The notes under the pieces were generated by a model. It had not been told where the DNA came from. It saw only the letters and a list, made by a program, of their open reading frames with translations, and did not search any database. Positions 5,511 through 26,100 of a stretch of DNA of 28,736 bases are shown piece after piece. Both the position numbers and the translations under genes were made by a program. Origin of the DNA: a virus; the IMG/VR virus record IMGVR_UViG_3300009002_000031, positions 1-28,736 of that record. One strand, 5' to 3'. Each line of letters begins with the position of its first letter. The first letter of the stretch is position 1.

Positions 5511-8500
5511 ATGGCAAGACAAGAACATCAAAGACCAGTTGATTCTGCATTACCCGGAGGAAGCTCTGGCCCATTTTTAGCAAGAGTACTAAGTCACCTT
5601 GATAACAGATTTATGGGTTCTTTAAAAGTACAAATTTTAAGAGTTAACAGTGCAGGAACGTACGATCTTACTGATCGTACAATGACTGCATATTATGCAT
5701 CACCATTTTATGGTTCGACAAGTCACCGCTCTGTAGGCAATACAGATGATTATCAGAATACACAACAAACATACGGTATGTGGTTTGTTCCTCCTGACCC
5801 GGACACTACTGTTCTTGTAACAATGGTCGAAGGTAGATCGGATATTTGTTTTTGGTTTGCGTGTGTACCAGACGATTATATGAACTTTATGATTCCTGAT
5901 GGCCGCCCATCTACTACATTATCTTCGAGTGGCAGCGGCGGACAGAATGGACGCCGATTACCAGTTGGCGAATATAATAAAAGAATTGTAAATCCTCAAG
6001 GAAATAACCAGCCTACAAGTTATCCAAAACCAGTTAATACAGATTTTGTTAACACCTTAACTGAAGAAGGATTGTTAGAAGATGATCACAGAGGTTTAAC
6101 AAGTTCGAGTGCGAGAAGAGAATTACCAAGTGCAGTTTACGGTGTAAACACACCCGGACCGCTTGATAAAAGACCATCTGCTCCAAGGGCACCTCGTGGA
6201 CCAAGCGACGACCAAGCAAACATTCCACGTAGCCGATTAGGTGGCCACAGCCTTGTAATGGATGACGGTGATGATAAACTTCTAAGAAGGTTTGCAGCAA
6301 GTGAAGGCGGACCGGAATATATTGATATTGAAAATGGCGACGGCGAGATTCCAGTAGGTGCAGAAACACGTCCAGCAAATGAACTGTTTAGAATTCGTAC
6401 AAGAACCGGCCATCAAATACTTTTACATAATACTGAAGATTTAATTTATATTTCAAATGCAAGGGGAACGGCTTGGGTCGAACTTACATCAAATGGTAAA
6501 ATTGATGTTTATGCACAAGATAGCATTAGTATGCATACCGAAGGTGAGTTTAACCTTACAGCTGATTCAAATATTAATTTAACATCAGGTGGAAATATTA
6601 ACTTAAATTCTACAAGTAGCATTAAAAGTAGTGCTCGAAATATAGACACTACTGCCGGCGGTAGAATTGCGTTTAAAGCAGCAAGTGAATTTACTGCTTT
6701 AGCTGGCGATTACATGGCATTAAAAAGTAGTGCTGATCTTGGATTAACATCAGGAGCATCAAACGTTAATATTTCAGCTGGAAGTAATGTTGAACTTAAT
6801 AGCGGATCTGATGTTAATATTATTTCTGATGGCGGCAAAGTTGCAGTATCAGCAAGCACTAGTTTTGATGCGAGTGCAGGTACCCAAATTGTAATGGGTG
6901 CTCCTGAAATACACGATTCTAGTGATAGTAGATTTATAGATGCAACCGAAATTAACTTGTTTGCATCTGCTGGAATATTTGTTACTGGTAACGGAACAAT
7001 TGACCTATTAACTCCAACGTTAAAAATAGAAGGTAGTGGCACAGTTGATATCAGAACTGACGGCGCATTAACTGCATCATCTGGCGCAGCAACTACATTC
7101 CAAGCAGGCGCATTGTTTGAAGTAGGAAGTACTAACTTTAGTACATCGTCGTCGGCATTGTCATTTAACGGAGTAGGCAACTTTAGCAGTCCAATAAATG
7201 TTCCGATTGTAAACGCCGGTATAATGAATACTAGCAGACTTAATGCTGGCATTTCAAGAGCCAATCACGTATCAGGTAGCGGTTCAGGACCAAGTAGCGT
7301 TAGCTATTCTGCAAACGCGCCGGGCGACGCTGCAATAGCGTTGCCATCAGCAGAGGGTAACATTCCGGCACCTCCGGCAAAAACAGATCCTCCAGAACCA
7401 ACTGAACCAAATCCAGCAGATATTGCTGCAAGAGTTCCAGAACACGAACCGTGGTTCCAACACGAAAACCTCGATCCGGCAGCATCTAATGTAAGGGCAG
7501 GAAACGGAAATGGTATAGATTCGTATAATTCGCCATTACAGGATACTTTCTTAAACATTGGTAGAAATGTAGGGCAAGGCACAGTTGCAACTCAACAGGT
7601 TGGAATTGCTGGACCAAATGCTGGTGTTGGTAATGATGACGGCGACGAAGGTGTTGATATTAATTATAACTATAATGATTACAATGACAATGTTGCTGAA
7701 GTAATTGGATTCTTTGAAAACAACGGATTTGAACCGTGGGTTGGCGCAGGCGTTGCTGGCGCACTACAATGGGAAGCAGGCCGCGGAATTAATCCTGGTG
7801 CTTATCTTGCACCAAATGATCGCTCTGGCGGATCGTATAACATTCCAGGAAACGGTGGATTAGGTGCAAGGGGAATTTGTCAATGGAGAGATTCAGGAAG
7901 ACGACTAACTTTACTTGAAAGATATCTTGGAAAATCTATTCTAATCCAGCCCGAAACAAACCCAAATTCAGAAGGATATGAAAGAAACAGAAACGGTAGA
8001 TTGCCTAACGTTACTTACAGTTCATTAGAATATGACAGAGGTGTAAGGGTTGCACCTGCTAATGCAACATTACAAGAACAGCTTGGCGGTATGCTTTGGG
8101 AAATGAACAATACTGAAGCAAGCACTTTACAAGCAATTAGAGCAGTAAATTCAGGAAGTGAATTGCAGAGAGCAAGACGTGTTGCTGAAATTATGAATGA
8201 TGTATTCTTGAGATCACAAAATCCGTCAATTCCAGTAGTAGGAAATACCCGTGTTCCGGTTAAAACACTTAGAGCAAATTCAGCACAAGAAATTTGGGAA
8301 GCGTACATTAGTGGACGTTCGACAGCCCCTATTAATGATCCAAGCCAGTATCCTTCGCCGCCACCTGCTGAAGGACAGGATCCGGCTGCAAATTCTCGTC
8401 CTAGAAACCAAGCCGATCCAATTGATATGAGTGTTTCATCAAATGCTCCTAATGTTGTTACTGGTAGTGCTAATACACGACAGGGTCCTTTAAGACCTGC

Positions 8501-9077
8501 GTTTATTTCAGCACTTAATAGAGCCGCTGCCGAAACCGGTATTCATAGAATTACTGGCACTAGCTTTGGAAATGAACCGTTAAGAAGAATTAATACTTCA
8601 ACTCAATTACCGATATCAAACTGGCGCACTTTCCCTTCAAGAGCAGTTGGCCCAGGTGCCGACATGTCAGGATCTGGAAATAGTTGGAGAAAGCTAAACC
8701 CAGCAAGTGGGCAGTTTGAATTTAGATCAAACGGCGCGAGTTGGAGAACTGGTACAGAAAGACACGATACTGGATTATGCATTGATGCATATCTTCAAAT
8801 AAGCGTTAACGGCAATTATAGAAGTTTGTTACCAACTAATGAAGCAGATAGAAACAGAATTATTAACTTTATAGAAGCATTTGCCAAATATGGCGGCCGA
8901 GGCGTTGGCGTCGGCGGCGGCAATTCAACAATGGGTAATGGACTATTCCACCTTGATATGCTAGGTGGAGATAACGGATCTGGTTGGAATAGACAACCGG
9001 CAGCTTGGCCATACGGCGGACAAGCATATCCGAAATGGGCGGTTGACGCACTAATAGAGGGCATAAGAAATGGCTGA
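5511..9077 (+). CDS. gp5: gp5-like baseplate spike with tail-lysozyme domain and M15-like peptidase domain
   Basis: The 1188-residue central spike. Residues about 22-130 are a gp5-type OB-fold (RFMGSLKVQILRV, YGMWFVPPDPDTTVLV, FWFACVPDDYMNFM). A Pro/Ser-rich linker follows, then about 285-560 a repetitive strand pattern rich in S/T/N/G (NINLTSGGNINLNS type) like the VgrG/gp5 triplex needle. Residues about 723-935 look like a phage-tail-lysozyme domain: QWEAG with likely catalytic E755 and GICQWRD (788-794). Residues about 990-1188 look like an M15 peptidase: H1085-x-x-G-x-x-x-D1092 and H1147-x-D1149 (FHLDM). T4 gp5 is 575 residues with its lysozyme between OB-fold and needle; here both enzymes follow the needle-like part. 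Likely role: piercing and locally degrading the cell wall during injection. It overlaps the next gene by eight bases. Confidence 0.87.
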   Translation: MARQEHQRPVDSALPGGSSGPFLARVLSHLDNRFMGSLKVQILRVNSAGTYDLTDRTMTAYYASPFYGSTSHRSVGNTDDYQNTQQTYGMWFVPPDPDTTVLVTMVEGRSDICFWFACVPDDYMNFMIPDGRPSTTLSSSGSGGQNGRRLPVGEYNKRIVNPQGNNQPTSYPKPVNTDFVNTLTEEGLLEDDHRGLTSSSARRELPSAVYGVNTPGPLDKRPSAPRAPRGPSDDQANIPRSRLGGHSLVMDDGDDKLLRRFAASEGGPEYIDIENGDGEIPVGAETRPANELFRIRTRTGHQILLHNTEDLIYISNARGTAWVELTSNGKIDVYAQDSISMHTEGEFNLTADSNINLTSGGNINLNSTSSIKSSARNIDTTAGGRIAFKAASEFTALAGDYMALKSSADLGLTSGASNVNISAGSNVELNSGSDVNIISDGGKVAVSASTSFDASAGTQIVMGAPEIHDSSDSRFIDATEINLFASAGIFVTGNGTIDLLTPTLKIEGSGTVDIRTDGALTASSGAATTFQAGALFEVGSTNFSTSSSALSFNGVGNFSSPINVPIVNAGIMNTSRLNAGISRANHVSGSGSGPSSVSYSANAPGDAAIALPSAEGNIPAPPAKTDPPEPTEPNPADIAARVPEHEPWFQHENLDPAASNVRAGNGNGIDSYNSPLQDTFLNIGRNVGQGTVATQQVGIAGPNAGVGNDDGDEGVDINYNYNDYNDNVAEVIGFFENNGFEPWVGAGVAGALQWEAGRGINPGAYLAPNDRSGGSYNIPGNGGLGARGICQWRDSGRRLTLLERYLGKSILIQPETNPNSEGYERNRNGRLPNVTYSSLEYDRGVRVAPANATLQEQLGGMLWEMNNTEASTLQAIRAVNSGSELQRARRVAEIMNDVFLRSQNPSIPVVGNTRVPVKTLRANSAQEIWEAYISGRSTAPINDPSQYPSPPPAEGQDPAANSRPRNQADPIDMSVSSNAPNVVTGSANTRQGPLRPAFISALNRAAAETGIHRITGTSFGNEPLRRINTSTQLPISNWRTFPSRAVGPGADMSGSGNSWRKLNPASGQFEFRSNGASWRTGTERHDTGLCIDAYLQISVNGNYRSLLPTNEADRNRIINFIEAFAKYGGRGVGVGGGNSTMGNGLFHLDMLGGDNGSGWNRQPAAWPYGGQAYPKWAVDALIEGIRNG

Positions 9078-10200
9078 AGACGATAGTACAATAATTGTCC
9101 CAATTGATGATGATAGTTCACTTGGCGGAAGTACACAGCCTAGTTTTACTTCAGGCATTACTAATGCACTCGGTGCAGTTGCGGGCCTACAAGCAATAGG
9201 TAGCATTGCAACTGCTTTATCTGATATATTTACAACCCAAGGAGCACCTGCTGATTTTATTGTTCCAGATTTAGCAAACAACGGAAGTCCGTCATTAGGC
9301 TCATCTGGCTCATCCGGCGGGCTTTTTGGATCATCATCAATTGTTAATACAGTTGATCCAACTATAGATGATGATTTGTTAGCGTCTGGAATTTCGCCAA
9401 GAACTTGGGAAGCACTTGATTTTGTTCTAAATAAAACACTTACAATGGACTGGACTGTTAGAAACGCTGATCCTGGAAATGAAAATATTCTAGAAGCATA
9501 CAGATTTGCCGGCAGAGGATTCACACAAGACGGCGGAACAGGACAGTTTTCATGGGCAGCAGCATTTGCTACTTGGGTACTAGTAAAATCAGGATTTCAA
9601 GGACTAAGAACTATGGCACCTAGTGCATTTCGTACATATGGAGATTCAGTTAGATTTCATGCCGGTCCGTTAACTAATGTTAGAAAATGGGATATGGTTA
9701 TTTTTACTAGCAATGTTAATATACAACATATTGGATTTATTCAAAGCTTTGATCCGGCGCAGCAAACAATGCAAATAATTGGCGGCGATCAAGCTGAGAC
9801 TGTAAAAGTTACTTCTATGCCATACAGTGTTTCTAATCCTTTATTTAGAGTGACTCACGTTAGAAGAAATTGGACAATACCAACAGGAATTGATACATCA
9901 ATTTTTGCAACAAGTGCAAGTCCGGCCCCTGCAGCAAATAATGTACTTCCTGTTCTTCCTTCGTCAACAATTACAATTCAACCATTGCCGCCAGCAGGAT
10001 CTACGCCTGAAGAAATTGAAGCATTTAACAGACGATATCCACCGCGTGCTACAGACGATCCTCGAGCACAATTTGGCCCTTATACATTAAACAATTCAAG
10101 ACCTACAACAGACCAGCTTATTGCTGCGGCTGATGCAGCAATTAATGAAGCACCAGCAACTGCACCGATACGAACACAGCCAAATAGAGGTCCTAGATAA
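9070..10200 (+). CDS. CHAP/NlpC-P60-like protein with catalytic cysteine replaced
   Basis: A 376-residue protein that starts inside the end of the spike gene (ATGGCTGA overlap), so probably co-translated and part of the same complex. N-terminus to about residue 105: Gly/Ser/Asp-rich with a hydrophobic stretch (about 29-55). Residues about 110-265 follow the CHAP-like fold: helix WEALDFVL, then SWAAAFATWVLVKSGF where family members have 'WCAAFV', RKWDMVIF (usual 'GDVVVF'), QH220-IGFI and GGDQ (usual 'GGNQ'). The cysteine site is A163 (GCA at 9556-9558), so peptidase activity is not expected, while the histidine remains. The C-terminal 110 residues are Pro/Ala-rich and disordered-looking. It may have become a structural or wall-binding part. 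The fold call rests on motif spacing alone. Confidence 0.62.
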   Translation: MAEDDSTIIVPIDDDSSLGGSTQPSFTSGITNALGAVAGLQAIGSIATALSDIFTTQGAPADFIVPDLANNGSPSLGSSGSSGGLFGSSSIVNTVDPTIDDDLLASGISPRTWEALDFVLNKTLTMDWTVRNADPGNENILEAYRFAGRGFTQDGGTGQFSWAAAFATWVLVKSGFQGLRTMAPSAFRTYGDSVRFHAGPLTNVRKWDMVIFTSNVNIQHIGFIQSFDPAQQTMQIIGGDQAETVKVTSMPYSVSNPLFRVTHVRRNWTIPTGIDTSIFATSASPAPAANNVLPVLPSSTITIQPLPPAGSTPEEIEAFNRRYPPRATDDPRAQFGPYTLNNSRPTTDQLIAAADAAINEAPATAPIRTQPNRGPR

Positions 10201-10215
10201 TAAGGTAAATATGTT

Positions 10216-10659
10216 ATGAGTTCATTAGAAAAAAATCTGTACAAAAATTTAAGAGTTGTTCCTCCTAAAAGAGAAGCGCCAAAAGTTTCATCTGGAACCT
10301 ACAGAGGAATTTCCACCACAGATCCAACAACTAAAGAATTTAAGCTTTTTGATCTTGCTCTTATTAAGCAAGATTTAGTAAATCATTTTCATATTCGTTT
10401 AGGCGAAAAATTAGAGAATCCTAGCTTTGGAACAATCATCTGGGATGTGCTTTACGAGCCACTAACTGATTCATTAAAAGATGTTATCATACAAAATGTA
10501 ACAGAAATCATTAGCTATGATAAGCGTGTTAAAGTTGATAGAGTTATTGTTAATAGCTACGAATCTGGTATCCAAATTGAGTGTGATTTAACGTATATTG
10601 AGTACAGTATTAGCGAACAATTAAAACTAAGTTTTGATCAAAGAAACGGACTCATTTAA
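10216..10659 (+). CDS. gp25: gp25-like baseplate wedge protein
   Basis: A 147-residue protein (T4 gp25: 132) that in T4 joins wedge and sheath and is the conserved trigger piece of all contractile tails (HsiF/TssE in type VI secretion). Recognisable parts are KLFDLALIKQDLVNHFHI, the NPSFGTIIWDVLYEPLTD stretch (residues 68-85) and the final beta strands. The conserved Glu-Pro-Arg of the family reads D102-K103-R104 here (YDKRV), keeping only the arginine. Ribosome site AAGG at 10202-10205. It lies 15 bases after the CHAP-like gene and before gp6; T4 also has 25 before 6. Confidence 0.9.
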   Translation: MSSLEKNLYKNLRVVPPKREAPKVSSGTYRGISTTDPTTKEFKLFDLALIKQDLVNHFHIRLGEKLENPSFGTIIWDVLYEPLTDSLKDVIIQNVTEIISYDKRVKVDRVIVNSYESGIQIECDLTYIEYSISEQLKLSFDQRNGLI

Positions 10660-13700: not shown

Positions 13701-14146
13701 GTGACAAAAGTGAACCAGATATGCAAGCAGTATTTAAAATTGTAAAAAATTCAGATAGAGTTGTTAATGACAACGACGTAAAATCTCGTGTTATTAGTGC
13801 AGTGAATAATTTCTTTGCACTTGACAACTGGGACTTTGGCGAAACATTTTATTGGAGCGAATTAAGTGCATATATTATGAAAGAATTAACACCGGATCTT
13901 GCTAGTATTGTACTAGTACCAAGAGACGCAAATAGCAACTTCGGCAGCCTTTTTGAAATAAAATGCGAATCGGACGAGATCTTTATTAGCAGTGCTACTG
14001 TTGATGATGTCGAAGTTATTTCAGCAATTACAGCAGAGCGACTAAAATCCGAAGGCGCAATTGTAACATCAACAGGAAGTTCATCGAGTGGCATTCAAAG
14101 CTCATCAACAAATTCATCAACTAATACTGGAGGCTTTATTTTCTAA
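10712..14146 (+). CDS. gp6: gp6-like baseplate wedge protein, enlarged
   Basis: gp6 dimers form the inner ring of the baseplate around the hub; relatives are the J proteins of Mu/P2-type phages and TssF. Residues about 1-110 carry the family N-terminus (KSYDFDNLRRTMIEYLRENY, EYLALIDMIAFLGQNISF, RKESVLRLANLLSY). A second conserved block at about 428-490 holds LITAEDYNVGPL, DIIKVKAVNRTASGISR and LFGTDGVLYREE. The C-terminus has YWSELSAYIMKELTPDL and ends in a Ser/Thr-rich tail (about 1110-1140). At 1144 residues it is much longer than T4 gp6 (660); the extra part is mainly beta-rich sequence at about 490-1000. The first hundred codons use CGT/CGC for arginine more than the rest, where AGA dominates. 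The stop overlaps the next ATG by one base. Confidence 0.92.
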   Translation: MSSTDRQNRLLLAEDWKKIYQSFKYADFKSYDFDNLRRTMIEYLRENYPEDFNDYIESSEYLALIDMIAFLGQNISFRIDLNARENFIELAERKESVLRLANLLSYNATRNRPAQGLLKFTSVRTTEQVTDSNGFNLSNRTVVWNDTTNPDWFEQFTKILNSSLPVQNTFGRPVKSERIAGVATEQYRLNNVSNSVSVFTFTKPVNSKTLEFEVVSTGIGDGEIFEESPLPGSQWGFVYRDNGQGPGSNTTGFFAHFRQGSLQRGDFTVDSAVPNQKINIDSENINNSDVWLYKLDSNGQEGELWTKVDSVEGNNVVFNSLNKKLRSIYSVITRSSDRVSLVFADGIFGELPKGNFRTYYRTSANSDYVILPPNMTNITIRIPYLSRANKPETLTITMDLKVPVDNAASTETIDSIKSNAPSTYYTQNRLITAEDYNVGPLGVSQDIIKVKAVNRTASGISRNYDILDATGKYSTTNLFGTDGVLYREELLSKTTFKFRTRTDIESEVENTITKILEDNNVRNFYIKEYPDQDYSELNLEWTQVTAETNRSTGLIEDSNGITYTVGSFTEGPLRFLESSASVKFLPPAGRAFLGDGYTENLNAPGATSYKWVKVVSVSGNGTVTLDSGLGPIVFNDVIPDGAILSKIKPKFVRDLSNSVKSQIIDNAFAYRTFGLRYDRELRAWRVITQENLNVVTDFSLGLAGDNTGQQIDSSWIVLFETDGTSYEVTYRNFRYIFESDTEVRFYFDGNKKIYDSKTGNIIRDKISVLSINTDINTDPGTSAFTRDFGWQVSKEYRDTSGYVDSKKVEVTYFDSDDDGVVDDPEIFDVIVDPSQYVFTKKVVINSSEFEVYVNSVTENIVTVASSANISLQAIGDPIYYVVADDVFYQLNSLTRTLSTLFDYNAYIGRENIKFQYNHASDENTRIDPSSTNIIDTYILTRQYDTIFRQYLNGTVVNSPLPPSSDQLFRSYGAEINKIKSISDEVIYQPVKYKILFGDKSEPDMQAVFKIVKNSDRVVNDNDVKSRVISAVNNFFALDNWDFGETFYWSELSAYIMKELTPDLASIVLVPRDANSNFGSLFEIKCESDEIFISSATVDDVEVISAITAERLKSEGAIVTSTGSSSSGIQSSSTNSSTNTGGFIF

Positions 14147-17100
14147 TGGCTTATGATAAAGATCAAGAAGATTTCTCTTTACCCGACGGAAACAATTCAG
14201 ACAGAAGTGCAAGTAATTTCTTACCAAAGTTTTTTAGAACAGAGACAAACAAAAAGTTTATAAACAGCACAATTGATCAAATGATCAATCCAGGGGTAGT
14301 TGAAAAAATTGACGCATTTGCAGGACGTAGATATGCAAAGGCTACAACAGCCATTGACAATTTCCTACCGGACTTTACTTCAGATAGAGAAAATTATCAA
14401 TTTGAGCCAGTTACTGTTTATAAAGATGAACTAGATAATGTTGAATTTTTAAAGAACTATAATGATTATATTTCTCAATTAAAGAATTTTAAAGGTTCTG
14501 TCAACAATCACAGCTCAGTAAACAGTCAAGAATTTTATGCTTGGGATCCACACATTGATTGGGACAAGTTTGTAAACTTCCGTGAATACTATTGGTTACC
14601 AACTGGCCCATCACCGATTTCGGTTACTGGACAAGCACAAGAAGTTGTTAGTACCTACACAGTTACGCTATCCGACGAGGGTGATAATTTTGCCTACGTA
14701 TTTACTCCAAATGGATTTACTAGAAATCCTCTACTAAAGCTTTATAGAGGACAGACGTATCGTTTTGAAATTGACACTCCTGGGCATCCTTGGGCTATTG
14801 CAGTACTAAGAAACTTTGTTGACAACGACCTAACTGACGGCACTGACTTTGAAAATGTTAGTGTTCTTTATAAGGACGGTGTAACGTCTGATACTGACTA
14901 TGTTGAATCAGGTACAGTTGAGTTTACTGTTCCGATAAATTCTCCAGATAAGTTATATTATATTAGTGAAAACAATATTAACACAAGTGGCGTGTTTGCA
15001 ATATTTGATATTGAAGCTAATACCGAAATTGATATCGATAATGAGATTGTTGGAAAAAAGACATATAAAACTAGTAACGGAGTTGAATTAAGCAACGGAA
15101 TGAAGTTGTTCTTCCAAGGAACAGTAACTCCAGAAAAGTACGCAACTGGTTTCTGGTATGTCGAAGGAGTAGGGTCAAGAATACAATTAGTTTCTGAGAA
15201 AGACCTCGAAGTACCATCGATATTCACAAGCAATTTTGAGATTCCGTTTGACGATGCTGAAATTGGATTCGACGAGTTTCCCTTTGAAACTGCAACTAGC
15301 TATCCAGGTACAAAGGATTACATTGTAATTAACCGTGCAAGTCCTGACCGAAATCCCTGGACAAGATACAACAGATGGTTCCATAGAGACATACTTGAAG
15401 AGTGCCTGGCCTGCAATAATCTTCCAATCAACATCGACGAAGAAGCAAGAGCAAAACGCCCTATTATTGAATTTGAAGCAGGATTAACACTGTATCAACA
15501 TGGCGCAAAGGCTAAACAAAACGTTGATATTGTAGACACATTTACCGCAGACGTATTCAGTACTATTGAGGGCAGCTTGGGTTATAACGTTGACGGTGTA
15601 GACCTAATCGACGGTATGCGTATTCTGTTTACTGCTGATCGAGATGTACTAGTTAATGGAAAAATTTATGAAGTTAATTTCATTTTGCATAATGGCCGCC
15701 GTCAAATTAGTCTTATAGAAACAGATGATACTAACCCGGCACTAGGTGAAGTTGTACTTTCACTTGGTGGACTTGGGTTCGCTGGAAAAATGTTCTATTA
15801 TGATGGCGAACAATGGAATCAATCACAAGACAAAACTAGTGTAAATCAGGCTCCGTTATTTTCTCTTTATAGCAAAGACGGAAATGAGTTTGACGACACA
15901 TTAATTTATCCTGCTACTAGCTTTAAAGGAAACAAACTCTTTAGCTATCGTATTGGCACAGGCTCAAACGATATTGAATTAGGATTTCCGCTTTCTTATA
16001 AAAATATTGCAAACGTAGGCGATATCGTTTTTGATTTTAACTTGCTACAAGGAAACTTTGTATACCAAGTTGCGCTGCACAAATCTCAAACAATTGGTAC
16101 TGACGTAGGGTATCTAAAAAAGTACGATGTAAATGGCGAAGAATTTACTTATGTAAATGCTTGGAAGAAAGCAGCTAAAGATAGCGAACAGCCGGTTATT
16201 AGACAATATGATACACAAAGTCAATTAAACAATTTTGCAATTGATGTTTTTAACAAAAGCTTTAACCTATCAGACTTGCGTGTTAAAGTTTCTGTAAACA
16301 GCGAACGTAAATCTGAAGGAACCGATTATACTATTATCGACAACGGCGCTGGCACTGCAATAGTCAAATTCACTAATGACGTTTCAGTAGGCGATGTTGT
16401 TTTGCTAAAATGCTTTAGCTCGGCAGATAAAAACGATAACGGGTTTTATGAAATTCCAATCAACCTTGAGAGAAATCCTCTTAATGAAAATATTACAGAT
16501 TTTACGCTTGGACAGGTTAACGACCATCTTGATTCAATTATTGACGATGCACCGAACTTCAGAGGAACGTACCCTGGAAAAAGCAATCTGCGTGATATCG
16601 GTCCTGTTACAAAATACGGAAAAAGATTTGTACAGCACAGTGGTCCTGTAAATCTAGCACTTTATCATATTACTGATAAAAATGCTAACCTTGTTAAATC
16701 ACTTCAATTTGCTAGAAAAGAATATGCTAAGTTTAAGAGAAAATTTATTAACGAATCGACAACAACTGGATTTCAAGGAAGCATAAAAGAACATGTTGAC
16801 TTACTATTGTCTCGTATCGTAAAAGATAAAATTTCTTCAATGCCTTTTTATTTTAGTGATATGATTGGAATAGGAGCATTTAGAAAAACAGTAAACAATA
16901 TCGAATTTGCTGGCCCTGCATACTTTGGAATTTCACAAGGCTTTGACTTAGAAACCTTGTCTCAAAAGGCAATTAGTGTCTATCAAAACGGAATACAGCT
17001 TCTACACGAAAGAGATTATGTGTTTGCAGACGGCTTTGTTTATGTAACAATAAACTTGCAAGACGGCGATGTTGTAGAAATTTATGAGTACGAAACTTCA

Positions 17101-20100
17101 AATGGTTCGTACATTCCGCCTACTCCAACTAAGTTAGGGCTATTTCCAAAATACGAACCTGCTGTTTATACTGACAACACTTATGTTGAATCGCAACTTG
17201 TTATTAGAGGACATGACGGAAGTCAAATGATTGCGTTTGGCGATTACAGAGATGACCTGTTAATTGAACTTGAAACAAGAATCTACAACAATATTAAAAC
17301 TAATAATAATAGAGCAATAATTGACATTGACGAATTCGTTGGAGGTTATTCTAGAGAGACTGGATTCTCTAAAGACGAAATTGATAATGTTATTCTTTCG
17401 GACTTTGCTCAGTGGTTAGAAATTAGCGGATCTCCAGATTATTCAGCACATGACTTTTGGGATCAATCAAACTCGTTTACTTACAACTACTCTAGCACAA
17501 CTGACCGTTATGGTAATTCGTTGCCGGGCTTTTGGAGAGCAATTTACGAGAAGTATTACGATACTGACAGCCCGCACACATCTCCTTGGGAAATGGTTGG
17601 TTTTACTATTAAGCCAACATGGTGGGAAGAAGTTTATGGCCCTGCGCCGTATACTAGCAATAACCGAATACTTTGGAATGATATACAAGAAGGTATTATT
17701 AGAGAGCCAAACAAGTCGGTTATTAGAAAGCCACAGTACAAGAGACCAGATCTTTTAAAATTTCTTCCAGTTGATGAATTTGGTAGACTGCTAAGTCCTC
17801 TACAATCAGGCATTGCTCAAAACTTTTCTGTTTCTAATAGTAAAGGAAGTTTTGTTTTTGGTGATCATTCTCCTACTGAAACAGCATGGAGACGAAGCAG
17901 CGAATATGCATTTAGCTTAATTACAGCATGGGTAGTTTTACAACCGACTAAAATTATAGGTTTAGGATTTGATACAAGCAGAATAATTAGAGATATAACC
18001 GGTAATATAATTTATAAAGATACTGGAAAAGCTATTAGTCTTGATAGCTTAGTAATTCCAACAGTTGAAGTTGGCACTACTCCGCTGGTATTAACCTCGG
18101 GATTGGTTAATTATGTTGCTAACTATATGGTTACAAAAACTATTGCAAGATACAATGATTATAAAACAATATTAGCAAATCTTGATAATCAGCTAGCAAT
18201 AAAATTAGGCGGATATGCTGACAAGACAAAACTAAAGCTGGTACTTGATAGCAGAAGTCCTTTAAATAAAACGAGCGTATTTGTTCCTGAAGAAAATTAT
18301 CAAATTAATTTCACAGTAAGTAGCGCAATTGACATTGTTGTGTTTAGTGGTATTATTATTGAAAAAACAGAACTCGGGTATATTATTTCTGGATACGATA
18401 AAGAAAATCCAGTCTTTAGTTTTAACCGTCCAATTGTTCAACAATCAGATCCGGCTATTACTGTAGGCGGTATTTCGGAGTCGTTTGTAACTTGGAATGA
18501 AAGACAAGAGTATAACAGTGGAACAGTTGTTGAATATCAAAATAGATATTACAGAACAAGAATTTCCCATACTAGCGGAACTAGCTTTGACTCTGGAAAA
18601 TTTGTAGTATTGCCATCACTACCGATAGTCGGCGGCATTACTGCTAACCTTAGAAAATCTTTTGAGAAAGAAATTTCACGAATTCCTTACGGAACACAAT
18701 TATCAAGTGTACAAGAAGTAGTAGACTTTATGTCAGGATATGAAAACTATCTTGTTGAGCAAGGCTTTAGGTTTGATTTTTACAACAACGATACCGAAGC
18801 ACTTGAAGATATGAGACTTTGTATTCAGGAATTTATGTTCTGGGTAACACAAAATTGGGATGACGGTACAGTACTAACAGTTAGTCCTGTTGCTAACAAA
18901 GTTCTATTTGAAAGAAAGTACTTTGTTGTAGACGACATCTATGATAGCTTCTATGATTATAATCTGTTAACAGGAGACGGAAATCGTATTAATAGAGATT
19001 TCTCAAATATCTTTAGAGACAATGCTAACGAGTTTGGGGTTAAGCCAGTTAATTCCGATGAAGGTATTTTCCTTGTTAAATTACCTCTTGTACAAAAAGA
19101 GCATGTTATATTAGTTGACAATAATACAGTTTTCAATGATACTATTTTTGACAAGAAAACAGGATATCGTCAAGAGAGAATTAAAGTTGTTGGTTACAGA
19201 ACCGATGATTGGACTGGTGGACTAAATGCCCCGGGCTTTATTTACGACACAGCAAAAGTTACACTTTGGAAAGAGTGGACAGATTATGCTATTGGCGACG
19301 TTGTTAAGTATAAAGAATTTTACTATTCATCAAATCAAAAGCATACAAGTACTGACTTCTTTGATGCAAACTATTGGAATATTCTGCCCAAGCGTCCAGA
19401 ATCAGAACTGTTGCCAAACTGGGATTACAGAGTAAATCAGTTTACTGATTTTTATAGCCTTGATACAGATAACTTTGACAGTGAACAACAGCGTCTCGGA
19501 CAACACCTTATTGGATATCAGAAGAGAGAATATCTTGCTAATATCATTCCAGATAGTGTTAGTCAGTATAAGTTCTACCAAGGATTTATACAAGACAAAG
19601 GTACTTTAAATTCGTTAACTAAATTGTTTGATGCCCTAAGTTCGGCAAACAAGGATAGCTTGGAATTTTTTGAAGAATGGGCAATTCGTTTAGGACAATA
19701 TGGTTCAGTTAATAATCTACAAGAAGTAGAATTTAATCTCAATGAAGGCAAGTACAGACTTGAGCCGCAATTAATTGAACTAGTTGATAACCTTTCGTCA
19801 ACTAGAACTGATCTAGTTTATGAATTTGCTCCGTACCAAACTTACATTAAGCCTGATGATTACGATCATCAGAACTTGTTTACTGAAAACGTTAACTCAG
19901 AAATGTATGTAAAAGATAGTGGCTATGTACGTGATAAGGATGTTTCTTTCCTTGCTATTAGCGACGAGCAATTACTTCAATTGTCAATTGACGATATTCT
20001 AATTGGTGAATTTGTTTGGATTAAGGATCAACAACAATCTTGGACAGTGTCGCGTTATGTTAACACTGAATACGAAATTGTCAATATCGAACCTGCAATA

Positions 20101-23100
20101 CCGGATGACGAATTCCTTCCTTATGATCCTGGAAATCGAGTAGGCTTTGTGATTACACTTGACAAGTTTAGTGACTTTGAAAAAGATGAAGTTATTGGAA
20201 TTAAGAGCGGCATACCGGACATTAATGGTTTCTTTAAAGTAACTTATGCATCACTTGACAAGATTGTAATACTAACAGATTCGCCAGTTAACGTACAAGA
20301 ATTTACAGATAGCAGTACTCTAGCAGTTACTCGATTTGTTAGAAGAAGATTTGACGATGCTGACGATCTTAACAGCAACATTACTGATATCAAAGTTGAT
20401 CTAAATGATAGAATTTGGCTTGATGATACAGGTGAATCGCGCTGGGGCGTTTACGAGAATGAAAACATCTATAGCTTATTAGAAGAAATTCCAAACCCAA
20501 CTGGTGACGGTGATGGATTTGCAACAAGCTTTGATGCAATTGATAATAACAGTATTATTATAATGGGCGCACCTGAAAGAGATTTAGATCCAGTAGTTAG
20601 AATTTACAGAAGATTTGCTGAAAATTCAGTTTTAACTCTCCTTCAGGCAATTACAGCAACAGATTCAGTTGACAGCAACAGCTTATTTGGATTTGATGTG
20701 TCAATCAGTAGTAATGGTGAATTTATTGCTGTTGGTGCTCCACATGCAAGTAACGCTAAAACTTTCTACGACGGTGATTTAGTACCGGGAGAAAGATACG
20801 AAGCAGGATACATTGTTAAAGATAGAAACACATTCTGGAGAGCGCTAGTTAGTGTTAATCCAGCACCGGCAGTTATTTCTCCTACTGATACAAACTGGGA
20901 ACAAGTTAATATTCTTGAAGCTAGTTCGGATTCTGGAGGAATTGAAAGTGGGCTTACACGTCAGGGAGTTGTATTCCTTTATGAAAAAGCAGTTAACAGC
21001 ACTTACACTCTGAAGCATATTATTACAAGTCCAGATCCAACTGACAATGAAAGATTTGGTTACAAGGTTGAACTAAGAAGAGATGCACTTGGAAGAACAC
21101 GTTTATTTGTTGGCGCACCTGGTGAGGAAAATATATCAAAAGGAAGAATTTATTTCTTTGATAATTTAAGTGGTGAATTTTCTTGGACAGCCGATAGTTC
21201 TTACAGAGGCATTTATAATGTGTCGTTTGATTATTATGCTGGCGAAATTGTTTATACTGCTGGCGAATTTAAGAAAGCAATTGTTAATGCACCCGGCGCA
21301 ATTGACAGCATTGATTGGGAAACTCTGGTAACTACAGATTATCCAGAACATACTGGATTTATTCCAAGACCAAATTCACCTGTTCTTTCAGATAGCGAAA
21401 ACGGAGTTTATGCAGACGCTACAAACATCGGAGACAAATTTACTGTAAACCGCCTTGGTGATGTATTAGCAGTTGCCGCAATTGAAGACGATATTGAAAA
21501 GATTATTATCTACAGATTTGTTTCTGATAGGTTTGGTTTCTCACAGAAAATTGATACCGACGACAGCCTAGAAACTTTTGGATATGTTATTGCACTTAAC
21601 GAACAAGGTAATAAGCTTGCTGTTGCAGCACCACGCAACGATGACGAAGGTATCGATTCGGGTGTTGTTTATATCTACGACCAAAATGATAACACACAAT
21701 ACGAAATCGGTCAAACTCTAAGAAGTCCGTTTGATGAAAAGAATGAAGCATTTGGTACTGGAGTATCGTTTTACGGAAACAAAGTTGCTATCTCAGGAAA
21801 GAATACTGATACTAGAATCTTTACAACGTTTGACAATTACTTTACATTGGATACTAATTTTGTTTCGTCTTATGTGTTTGATCAAAATACTACTCGTAGC
21901 GAAGTTAGCACAACATACGATGGCGGAACAACACGATTTATGACTAAGCGTGCCGATACTGGAAGAATTGCTCTCTTCCAACAAATTGGAAATGCATTCA
22001 TCTTTGCTGAAGATATCAATTATAATAGAGACACAAAGTTTAATAGTCTTTCAAACTTTAAATTAATTGATAACCATATCTACATCGGATTGCCTAAATT
22101 AAATCCGGCATTAACAAATGATGACCTTGTTGGAAATTATGTCGACAACGATTCAACGGTTGGAATGTTTGTTGATATGCGAGCAGAAAGAAATGCTAAT
22201 AGCTGGACACTTATTACACAAGAAGACGGCAAAATTGATATCTCAAAGATTTCACGTTGCTTCTTGTACTCAAAAGATTTAAATGATATTATTGCTGAAC
22301 TTGATATTGTAGATCCAAGACAAGGTAAAATTGCAGGTCCTGCTGAGCAAGAACTTGATTATAAAACTTTCTATGATCCAGCAGTGTACTCGATTAATAC
22401 AGCAGGAGTGCAGGGTGTAGTAGTTGATAGTGAATCAAACTGGACAGACAAGCAAGTGGGGCAGCTATGGTGGGATCTAAGCACTGTAAGCTGGTACAAT
22501 CCTTACCAAGGCGAGTCTCAGTATAGAGCAAACAATTGGAATAGAATCACGCCTGGTTCGTCAGTTGATGTATACGAATGGATAAGCACTGATTTACTTC
22601 CATCAGATTGGAACCGTCTTGCTGATACAAACGAAGGCTTTGCTAAAAACATTAGCGGTACTACATTGTACGGCAATAGTGTTTACAGTTCAAAGAGAGT
22701 TTACGACAATATCTCAAGAACATTTAGTACAAAATACTTCTATTGGGTTAAGAATAAAAGAATTGTTCCACAACTTCGTACTAGAAGATTGAGCGCATTT
22801 GACGTTGCAGAAATTATTAGAGATCCTGCAAATTCGGGATACCGATTTGTTGCACCGCTTGACACAAATAAGTTTGCAATTTATAATTCAAGAAGCTTTG
22901 TAGAAGGTACAAATACTATTTTGCACTTTAGCTTTGCTAAGGATCCTACTTTACAAACAAACCTACACAGAGAATATCAGCTAGTTACTGAAGGACTTGA
23001 CACTAGTATTATTAATGTCGAGGTTCAATCTAAGTGGGTTGACAGCTTAGTTGGATATGATCAAAATAACAACAACGTTCCGGATCCAGAACTTCCTGTA

Positions 23101-26100
23101 AAGCAAAAGTACGGAATTCTAAACTTCCCTCGCCAGAGTATGTTTATTAACAGACTTGAAGCAGTTAAGCAGGTTGTGGAAAGAGTTAATGACGTTCTAG
23201 TAAACACTCAAGTAGTTGATGGAAAAGATTTTACATCTCTATTACTAAAAGACGAACCACCTTTAACTGTTGAAGGAAAGTACGATAGCGTAATTGATAG
23301 TGTTGCTCAGTTAAGATTTGTTGGCGTTGCTAAAGTAGAGCAAGCAATATTAGAACCGGTTATTGAAAATACTCGAATTGTCGGAGTTAACATTATTAAC
23401 TCTGGTAGAGGATATTCTGTTGCACCTACTGTAAAGATCAGTGACAATAAAGGCGCGTCAGCTGTAATCCAAACCACAATTAATAATCTTGGACAAGTTA
23501 CAAGTGTTAACATTAAAAACGGTGGAAAAAATTACACTAGTAATACTAAATTAACAGTTAGAAAATTTAGTGTTCTTGTTAACAGTGATGAGGAAATAGG
23601 CGGTCGTTGGGCAATTTATACTTGGGATAAAACATCGCAGGAATGGTCACGCTCAGACAACCAAGCGTTTGATACAACACGTTACTGGGATTATGCAGAT
23701 TGGTACGCAGAAGGATATAGTTCTCAAACAGCAATCAACCGAATACTAGCACAGACTTTTGAGTTAGCAAGTATCGATGCTGAAATTGGTGATATTATAA
23801 AAGTTGAAAGTGTTGGATCAGGAGGTTGGTTACTTCTACGTAAAGTTGACGATCAATTTACACAAGATTTTACTGTTAACTTTGAAACAATTGGTAGACA
23901 AGATGGAACAATCCAGCTTTCGACTAGATTGTACGATTATGCTTCTACAACTAGCGGATTTGATTCTAATATTTACGACAGTGCTTTTTATGACAGAGAA
24001 CCGGTAGTTGAATTAAGAAATATCTTAACTTCTTTAAGAGACGATTTGTTTATTGGAGACTTAGCAGTTGAATGGAACAAGTTATTCTTTGCAAGTATGA
24101 GATATGCATTTTCTGAGCAAGCAGATATTGATTGGGCGTTTAAAACTAGCTTTGTAAGAGCCAAGCACAATCTTGGTGAACTAACACAAAAAGTTACCTT
24201 CCAAAATGACAACTTAGAAAATTACGAAGATTATGTTAACGAAGTTAAGCCATACAAAACAAAAGTTCGAGAATACATTAGTTCTTATGAAAAATTAGAA
24301 CCGACTGAAACCCTAACAACGGACTTTGATTTACCGCCGTCTTATGATGCTGTAACAAGAAGTATTTTAACAAATATTGCAACTCAAAATGGCGATGCAT
24401 TATTTGGTGTTGGCGGCCTATACTTTGAAGAACCGTTTAACCAATGGACTAACAATAACGGATACGAAATTGTAAGAATTGATATTGCAGATGCAGGTCA
24501 GGGCTACCTTGAAACTCCAACAATTGAGATCGAAGGAAATAAAGGAACAGTAGCAACGGCATTCGTAAGCAGAGGAACAGTTCGTTCAATTGAAATAGAA
24601 AATACTGGATCTACTTATTATACTGCTCCAACTATTAACATTGTTGGCGCTGTTGATCAATTTGGTCGCCCTGCAAAAGCTGTTGCAATTCTAGGCAATG
24701 GTAAAGTTCGTGGAATGCATATGACTATCAAGTTTGATAGAGTAAGCGGATCTTACTTGTTTACAGAATTAGATAAAACAGAAACGTTTGTAGGTACATC
24801 TGCTAGAGAAAAATTTGAACTACAATGGCCAATGAGCGTTAACACTTCTAATTACACTATAATTGTTAACGGTATTGAACAGCTTGAAAGTTCTTTTGAT
24901 GTCGGAAATGATCTTGACACTTCAAAAGGATATGACAGATTTACAGGATTTATTGATTTTGCAGAAGCACCTGGTGAAGATGCAGTTATCGAAATTCAAT
25001 ATAAGAAGGAAGTTTCGTTGCTACAAGCAGCAGACAGAATTAACTTCTTCTATAATCCAACAACTGGTATGCTAGGTAAAGACTTGTCTCAATTAATGGA
25101 CGGTGTTGAATACAGCGGCGTACAAATTGATAGCTTTGACTTTGGAAATGAGCAAGGCTGGGACGTTGCTGGATGGGCATCTCTTCCGTGGGATACATTT
25201 GACGATGCACAAGATGAAGTTTTTGTGCTAGATGGAAGTACTGTTATATTTGAGCTAAGTCAGCCACTTGAAGACGGCGCAGAGTATAACTTCTATAGAA
25301 ATGGAATCAGACTTGATGATCCTGTATATGATGGAAGCACTCCAACTCAAAACCCAAATGCAATTATGCAAACAATTGTTGGCGATGGTGTTACAACCAC
25401 AATTACAATTAGTGAAGAAATCACAACCGAAATTGGCGACCTTATTGTAATTAGAAAGAGCACAAGCGATGGCGCAAGTAGTGCTATAAACTTCGACACT
25501 CAATTAGAAGGCGGCAATCTTGCATATTCAACTGCAACTGGCATTGATGCAGGAGAAATTAATATCGACGGCGACGGTTTTGTTACTCCAACTACTTCAA
25601 AAGGACCCGAAGAACTTGTTCCTGGAGAGATTGTTGACACATTAGATATTCGTGTATATCATAGACCATCTGAAGGTATTGGAGTTATTGCAACTGCAAA
25701 CTACAGACTTGACGGAGTGACTACAGAATTTCCACTACCAGGAATGCCACAAAGCAACGAAGGAATCATTGTTAAAATTAACAACGTTATATTAGGTAAC
25801 GATTCTTATTCAATTGACTTTGAAAATGAATTACTGTTGTATAATGATAATAATACAAATACAGGTGCAAGTCTTGCTATAACAACTATTGGAACTAATG
25901 GCGCAGATCTAATCGATACTAACACATTTGTTTCCGACGGAAGTACGATTACTTTTGTAACTTCGGCAACTTGGACTGATGAACTTTCTGCACTAGTTCT
26001 AGTCAATGGCGAAGTTGCTCGTGAAGGATATACTTTACTTCAATCCGACGCAACAGATGGATTTGTAGATAGATTAAAAATTGTTTTTGCACAAGGTCTG

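Follow-up and report, generated by a model that had tools for sequence, protein, structure and literature searches.

A 28.7-kb IMG/VR record from a giant T4-like phage (28,736 nt, analyzed in full and referred to here as the window) contains, next to the tail spike gene gp5, a gene whose product resembles a CHAP-type cysteine peptidase but has Ala where the nucleophile Cys is expected. The question raised by this locus is what such a protein is kept for, if it is kept at all. The gene lies at positions 9070 to 10200 on the plus strand, starts with ATG, and encodes 376 amino acids. The gene order in the window is late sigma factor (minus strand), structural, wedge, structural, gp5, CHAP-like, gp25, gp6, and an open reading frame (ORF) of 4570 codons; gp6 is closest to its counterparts in jumbo phages SCTP-2, Phosso, Atu_ph07, RaK2, and GAP32 (33 to 36% identity). 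The CHAP-like gene fills the slot between gp5 (5511 to 9077, plus strand) and the baseplate wedge gene gp25 (10216 to 10659, plus strand), and its homologues are found in the same slot. Since the gp5 stop codon TGA is at 9075 to 9077, the two genes overlap by 8 nt (ATGGCTGA, 9070 to 9077). The GAGGG at 9057 to 9061 is, judged by sequence, a plausible ribosome-binding site of the CHAP-like gene, and together with the overlap (9057 to 9077, plus strand) it joins the gp5 stop to the next start. The earlier note's description of an intact frame translationally linked to the spike is thus borne out: the 376-codon frame is open and overlaps gp5.

The earlier note had also read the order of motifs in this ORF as that of a CHAP or NlpC/P60 peptidase, and all four motifs are present. 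The profile comparison that it proposed agreed in part: the protein matched TIGR02594 with an E value of 1.8e-6, but the score of 28.3 bits is under the curated cutoff of 70.55 bits, which the Cys-bearing relatives (47 to 48 bits) do not reach either. The match to DUF2272 (PF10030; 19.8 bits, E = 7.6e-4) was below the gathering score of 27 bits. Syntenic Cys-bearing homologues exceeded the Pfam CHAP gathering score (37.9 versus 26 bits). Searches of the Protein Data Bank (PDB) with the single sequence or with a profile found nothing relevant, and a match of residues 75 to 120 to NuoB was dismissed as weak and located in a Ser/Gly-rich linker. The AlphaFold model of the CHAP-like domain has a pLDDT above 90 over most of its length. 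When this model was compared to known structures using VIA-align, NlpC/P60 and CHAP enzymes topped the list (Z of 8 to 10, maximum 10.1; 115 residues at 3.0 Å); Foldseek matches were weak (best E = 0.03). By prediction, residues from about 105 to 272 (9382 to 9885, plus strand) therefore adopt the CHAP/NlpC-P60 (papain-like) fold.

In CHAP and NlpC/P60 cysteine peptidases (PF05257, PF00877, and TIGR02594), with which the 376-aa protein has the fold, the motif order, and the His column in common, the Trp of the WC motif must be followed by the catalytic Cys for the enzyme to be active. Here, this position is occupied by Ala163 (codon GCA, 9556 to 9558). Another Cys acting as the nucleophile is ruled out, as there is none among the 376 residues. 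The catalytic His is present: His220 (CAT, 9727 to 9729) aligns with the invariant His of the 57 Cys-bearing sequences from viral contigs described below, while the third polar residue is Asp240 (GAT, 9787 to 9789) instead of the Asn found in all of them. The alignment thus places A163 and H220 in the columns assigned to them in the earlier note. In PHROGs, the protein matches phrog_1259, the gp5 tail lysozyme family (E = 9e-6), and tblastn detected the domain in gp5 of Ackermannviridae and in tape-measure proteins of Caulobacter phages (E of about 1e-7); the two matches inspected have the Cys (SWCASF and SWCAAF). Together with the TIGR02594 and DUF2272 matches, the syntenic homologues, and the model, this resemblance exceeds chance. 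In Ackermannviridae, the same domain, at about 30% identity, is part of the spike protein, the “baseplate hub subunit and tail lysozyme” (phrog_1259; Kuttervirus allotria). In Kuttervirus, it forms an internal part of gp5 and carries the catalytic Cys (SWCASF), whereas in the window it is encoded by a separate, overlapping gene and lacks this residue.

A scan of viral contigs with the 376-aa protein alone recovered only an identical copy; so poor a yield meant that the neighbors gp6 and gp25 were required to reach relatives. Several hundred loci were gathered in scans with gp6, gp25, CHAP proteins, the gp5 N-domain, and the M15 domain of gp5 as queries. An iterated CHAP profile then yielded 169 copies with 78 unique domain sequences, nearly all adjoining gp5. 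No copy was detectable in the isolate jumbo phages SCTP-2, Atu_ph07, Phosso, and GAP32, and the bacterial genomes searched held no relative of the Cys-less form. Among the 78 unique sequences, the nucleophile column contains Cys in 59 (57 from viral contigs and two from annotated phages), Ala in 7, Gly in 1, His in 8, Asn in 1, and Ser in 2. The comparison of related phages suggested in the earlier note thus shows that the column is usually Cys. In a CHAP tree computed after masking of the nucleophile and His columns, the 17 Ala, Gly, His, and Asn forms make up a single clade (support 99/99), and Ser is a separate replacement.

The Ser forms (WSAA; L049, 2307 to 3893; L055, 3 to 1151; L340, 7998 to 9584) keep the His, Asn, Trp196, and Gly219 and adjoin a GH19-type gp5 without an M15 domain; they could be active serine enzymes or another dead form. 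The His forms (WHTAF; L139, 3736 to 5982; L131, 3148 to 5985; L110, 3922 to 5982; and relatives) carry about 500 extra N-terminal residues, and by eye, a GDSH-like stretch is seen in their gp5 together with lysozyme-like and M15 domains. The most degenerate forms (L141, 4900 to 5982; L338, 6360 to 7688) have Asn as the nucleophile and Val or Ile in place of His; their genes are still open and in the same place.

The spike protein itself provides a likely reason for the loss of the Cys. The 1188-aa gp5 comprises an OB domain, a beta-helix (DUF2345 like), a glycosidase domain, Phage_lysozyme2, at residues 727 to 931 (7689 to 8303, plus strand), and a C-terminal domain at residues 978 to 1188 (8442 to 9074, plus strand). 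The match to Phage_lysozyme2 (PF18013, E = 2.5e-6) scores 28.1 bits, narrowly below the cutoff of 28.2; relatives L096 and L141 score 55 and 92 bits. The C-terminal domain, which escaped the earlier note, is a putative M15-like zinc peptidase. It has the invariant pattern RHDxGxxxD...HxD, in which H1085, D1092, H1147, and D1149 do not vary, and the zinc-ligand columns (H108, D115, and H170 in the alignment) are invariant in 16 rows. Its AlphaFold model (pLDDT of 85) has almost exclusively M15 enzymes as nearest structures, among them Ply500, LysB4, Zn DD-peptidase, and MepA, whose H..D..H pattern is kept, although with modest Z scores of only 4 to 5.5. It differs from them in ending in HxD, and no Pfam match is significant (best VanY, E = 0.037).

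To define what else distinguishes the Cys-less forms, we compared the positions that are invariant in the 57 Cys forms: C163, S184, Q185, W196, R205, G219, H220, and N240. C163, S184, W196, and G219 are kept in none of the 17 Cys-less forms; Q185 (8 of 17), R205 (10), H220 (13), and N240 (11) are partly kept. In the 376-aa protein, Ser184, Gln185, Trp196, and Gly219 are all replaced, in addition to the nucleophile. Core positions W162, D208, F223, G239, K246, and R266 are retained in the Cys-less forms, and A143, G148, G155, S214, G222, P251, and R265 are invariant in the Cys-less clade and not in the Cys forms. The ratio dN/dS for the domain was 0.09 to 0.14 for Ala/Gly forms, 0.06 to 0.12 for His forms, and 0.04 to 0.15 for Cys forms, estimated from close pairs, the only informative ones since synonymous sites are near saturation against more distant relatives. 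These values indicate purifying selection on the Cys-less clade. That the gene is decaying and has simply not been removed yet, as the drift of the nucleophile column through Ala, Gly, His, and Asn might suggest, is scarcely credible: copies are open throughout the clade, several clade-specific residues are invariant, and dN/dS of about 0.06 to 0.14 is the same as in Cys forms. The earlier note's proposal of a retained pseudoenzyme rather than a decaying gene agrees with the existence of Cys relatives and with this selection.

Hydrolysis that does not depend on Cys but uses a different residue or a metal site is very improbable. In all 8 His forms, the nucleophile column does hold a His, adjacent to the catalytic-His column, and the Ser forms carry Ser with the His and Asn kept. 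However, in the group of the 376-aa protein itself the column holds Ala or Gly, this protein is devoid of Cys, and the other cleft residues are lost together. A second possibility is that the dead domain binds peptidoglycan, its cleft holding a stem peptide so that the lysozyme and M15 peptidase of the spike are positioned against the wall. In favor of such a module, the predicted model shows an intact fold, and besides His220, Asn or Asp at position 240 (17 of 17) and Gln241 (15 of 17) are kept. Nevertheless, we consider it unlikely. With Ser184, Trp196, and Gly219 gone from every Cys-less form and Gln185, Arg205, and His220 lost in part, the old substrate contacts have probably disappeared.

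The state of the nucleophile was next related to the content of the adjacent gp5. All 17 Cys-less forms are accompanied by an M15-like domain, located in gp5 itself or, in L108, encoded by the next gene; no such domain accompanies any of the 50 Cys forms whose gp5 could be seen. The latter gp5 proteins are not enzyme-free, a notion that we considered and rejected: they have GH19-like (phrog_181 endolysin; 37 loci) or SLT-like (phrog_27932 tail lysozyme; 12 loci) muramidases, and the remaining one is a gp5-CHAP fusion. Five previously unseen domain sequences from later loci (three Cys without M15, one Asn with M15, and one Ser without M15) fit the pattern except for the Ser one. In L102, where the slot holds no CHAP gene, gp5 has Peptidase_M15_4 (E = 1.7e-11) and the slot gene has an endolysin domain (phrog_90, E = 1e-23); L332 combines an M15-like gp5 with a slot gene of the same kind, and gp5 of the His forms contains phrog_90 plus M15. 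Judging by their domains, enzyme-bearing cassettes thus usually appear to combine one glycosidase with one peptidase. The pairing is confined to such cassettes, since at many further gp5 loci of the wider group gp5 is short and nothing occupies the slot.

The loss of Cys may, however, be unrelated to M15, the two changes having occurred in one ancestor of a retained pseudoenzyme and been inherited together. There is one Cys-less clade in the CHAP tree, the Ser forms dropped the Cys without M15, and hitchhiking is possible because the CHAP-like gene and gp5 are adjacent. With only two independent pairs behind it (sign test, p = 0.5), the link is suggestive and not significant, and the association amounts to one to three evolutionary events. 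Yet, the M15/lysozyme pairing recurs in the CHAP-free cassettes (L102 type and L332) and therefore looks functional, so we regard coincidental loss as a doubtful though serious alternative. In the gp5 N-domain tree, a single clade of Cys-less phages is rejected (p-AU = 0.0038), and in the CHAP tree the same holds for a grouping of the His/Asn forms with their Cys-bearing neighbors from the gp5 tree (p-AU = 0.0009); the gp5 C terminus and CHAP therefore appear to have been transferred together. The simplest account is a single loss of Cys followed by exchange of the gp5 C terminus and the slot gene as a unit.

Overall, these results suggest that the protein is probably a TIGR02594-like CHAP peptidase that became a pseudoenzyme when M15 took over its role and that now plays a noncatalytic structural or adaptor role in association with the spike. 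The gp5 spike of an ancestral lineage would have acquired a C-terminal M15-like zinc peptidase beside its own muramidase, so that the neighboring CHAP would no longer be needed to cut peptidoglycan. The nucleophile and other cleft residues would then have been lost, while purifying selection held the fold and new conserved residues arose. The present protein is most likely a subunit whose translation is coupled to gp5 and which docks on the spike or hub. We infer that it is present in the virion, docked on the spike, and inactive, and that the takeover by M15 caused the loss. Spike attachment fits the fusion of the domain to gp5 in L253 and its location inside gp5 in Kuttervirus. A structural or adaptor role is the most economical, since the nucleophile and cleft are gone, the fold is under selection, and an M15 domain adjoins; of the two adaptor roles considered possible in the earlier note, the structural one is favored over the wall-binding one because cleft residues were lost in concert. 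Besides the small number of events and the adjacency of the two genes, several findings count against this explanation: the Ser forms lack both Cys and M15, His220 persists in more Cys-less forms than a pure scaffold would need, and the M15 assignment has modest structural scores and no significant Pfam match.

Cutting of both glycan and peptide at a myophage hub is already known: according to the available part of the report on Anabaena myophage A-1(L), its hub protein gp15 has lysozyme, endoglucanase, and peptidase domains (PMC10966104). The likeness to the window lies in the glycan- and peptide-cutting domains at the tail hub; domain placement differs, and that part of the report describes no retained dead peptidase (PMC10966104). 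Spike-borne peptidases of myoviruses have received little study: among virion-associated lysins of Gram-negative phages, a 2017 review listed only one with shown endopeptidase activity (PMC5380687). In the literature searched, we found no dead CHAP domain or pseudoenzyme of a phage tail. Cases in which a tail wall hydrolase became structural, and in which one slot holds both active-looking and dead relatives, would show how injection machines recycle enzymes, and with the present set Cys proteins can be compared directly with matched Ala/Gly/His/Asn ones. A broader proposition, to which we give somewhat less than an even chance, is that the spikes of these phages combine, as a rule, one glycan-cutting with one peptide-cutting enzyme; modules would be swapped as a gp5-slot cassette, and once a spike acquires a peptidase of its own, the displaced CHAP would be put to new use as a dead subunit of the spike, bearing a newly conserved surface. 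As a design rule for spikes, the glycosidase-plus-peptidase pairing is testable.

Several further loci deserve mention. In L287 (5863 to 7074), an M15-like domain is joined to a stretch that by eye is lysozyme/transglycosylase-like, another peptidase-glycosidase pair; the gp5 N-domain was not detected in this contig. In L253 (4165 to 6774), a Cys-type CHAP and gp5 form one 870-aa fusion protein. In the window itself, the 4570-aa ORF following gp6 occupies positions 14146 to 27858, and Atu_ph07 and Phosso have a virion structural gene of 13.4 to 13.7 kb at the same place.
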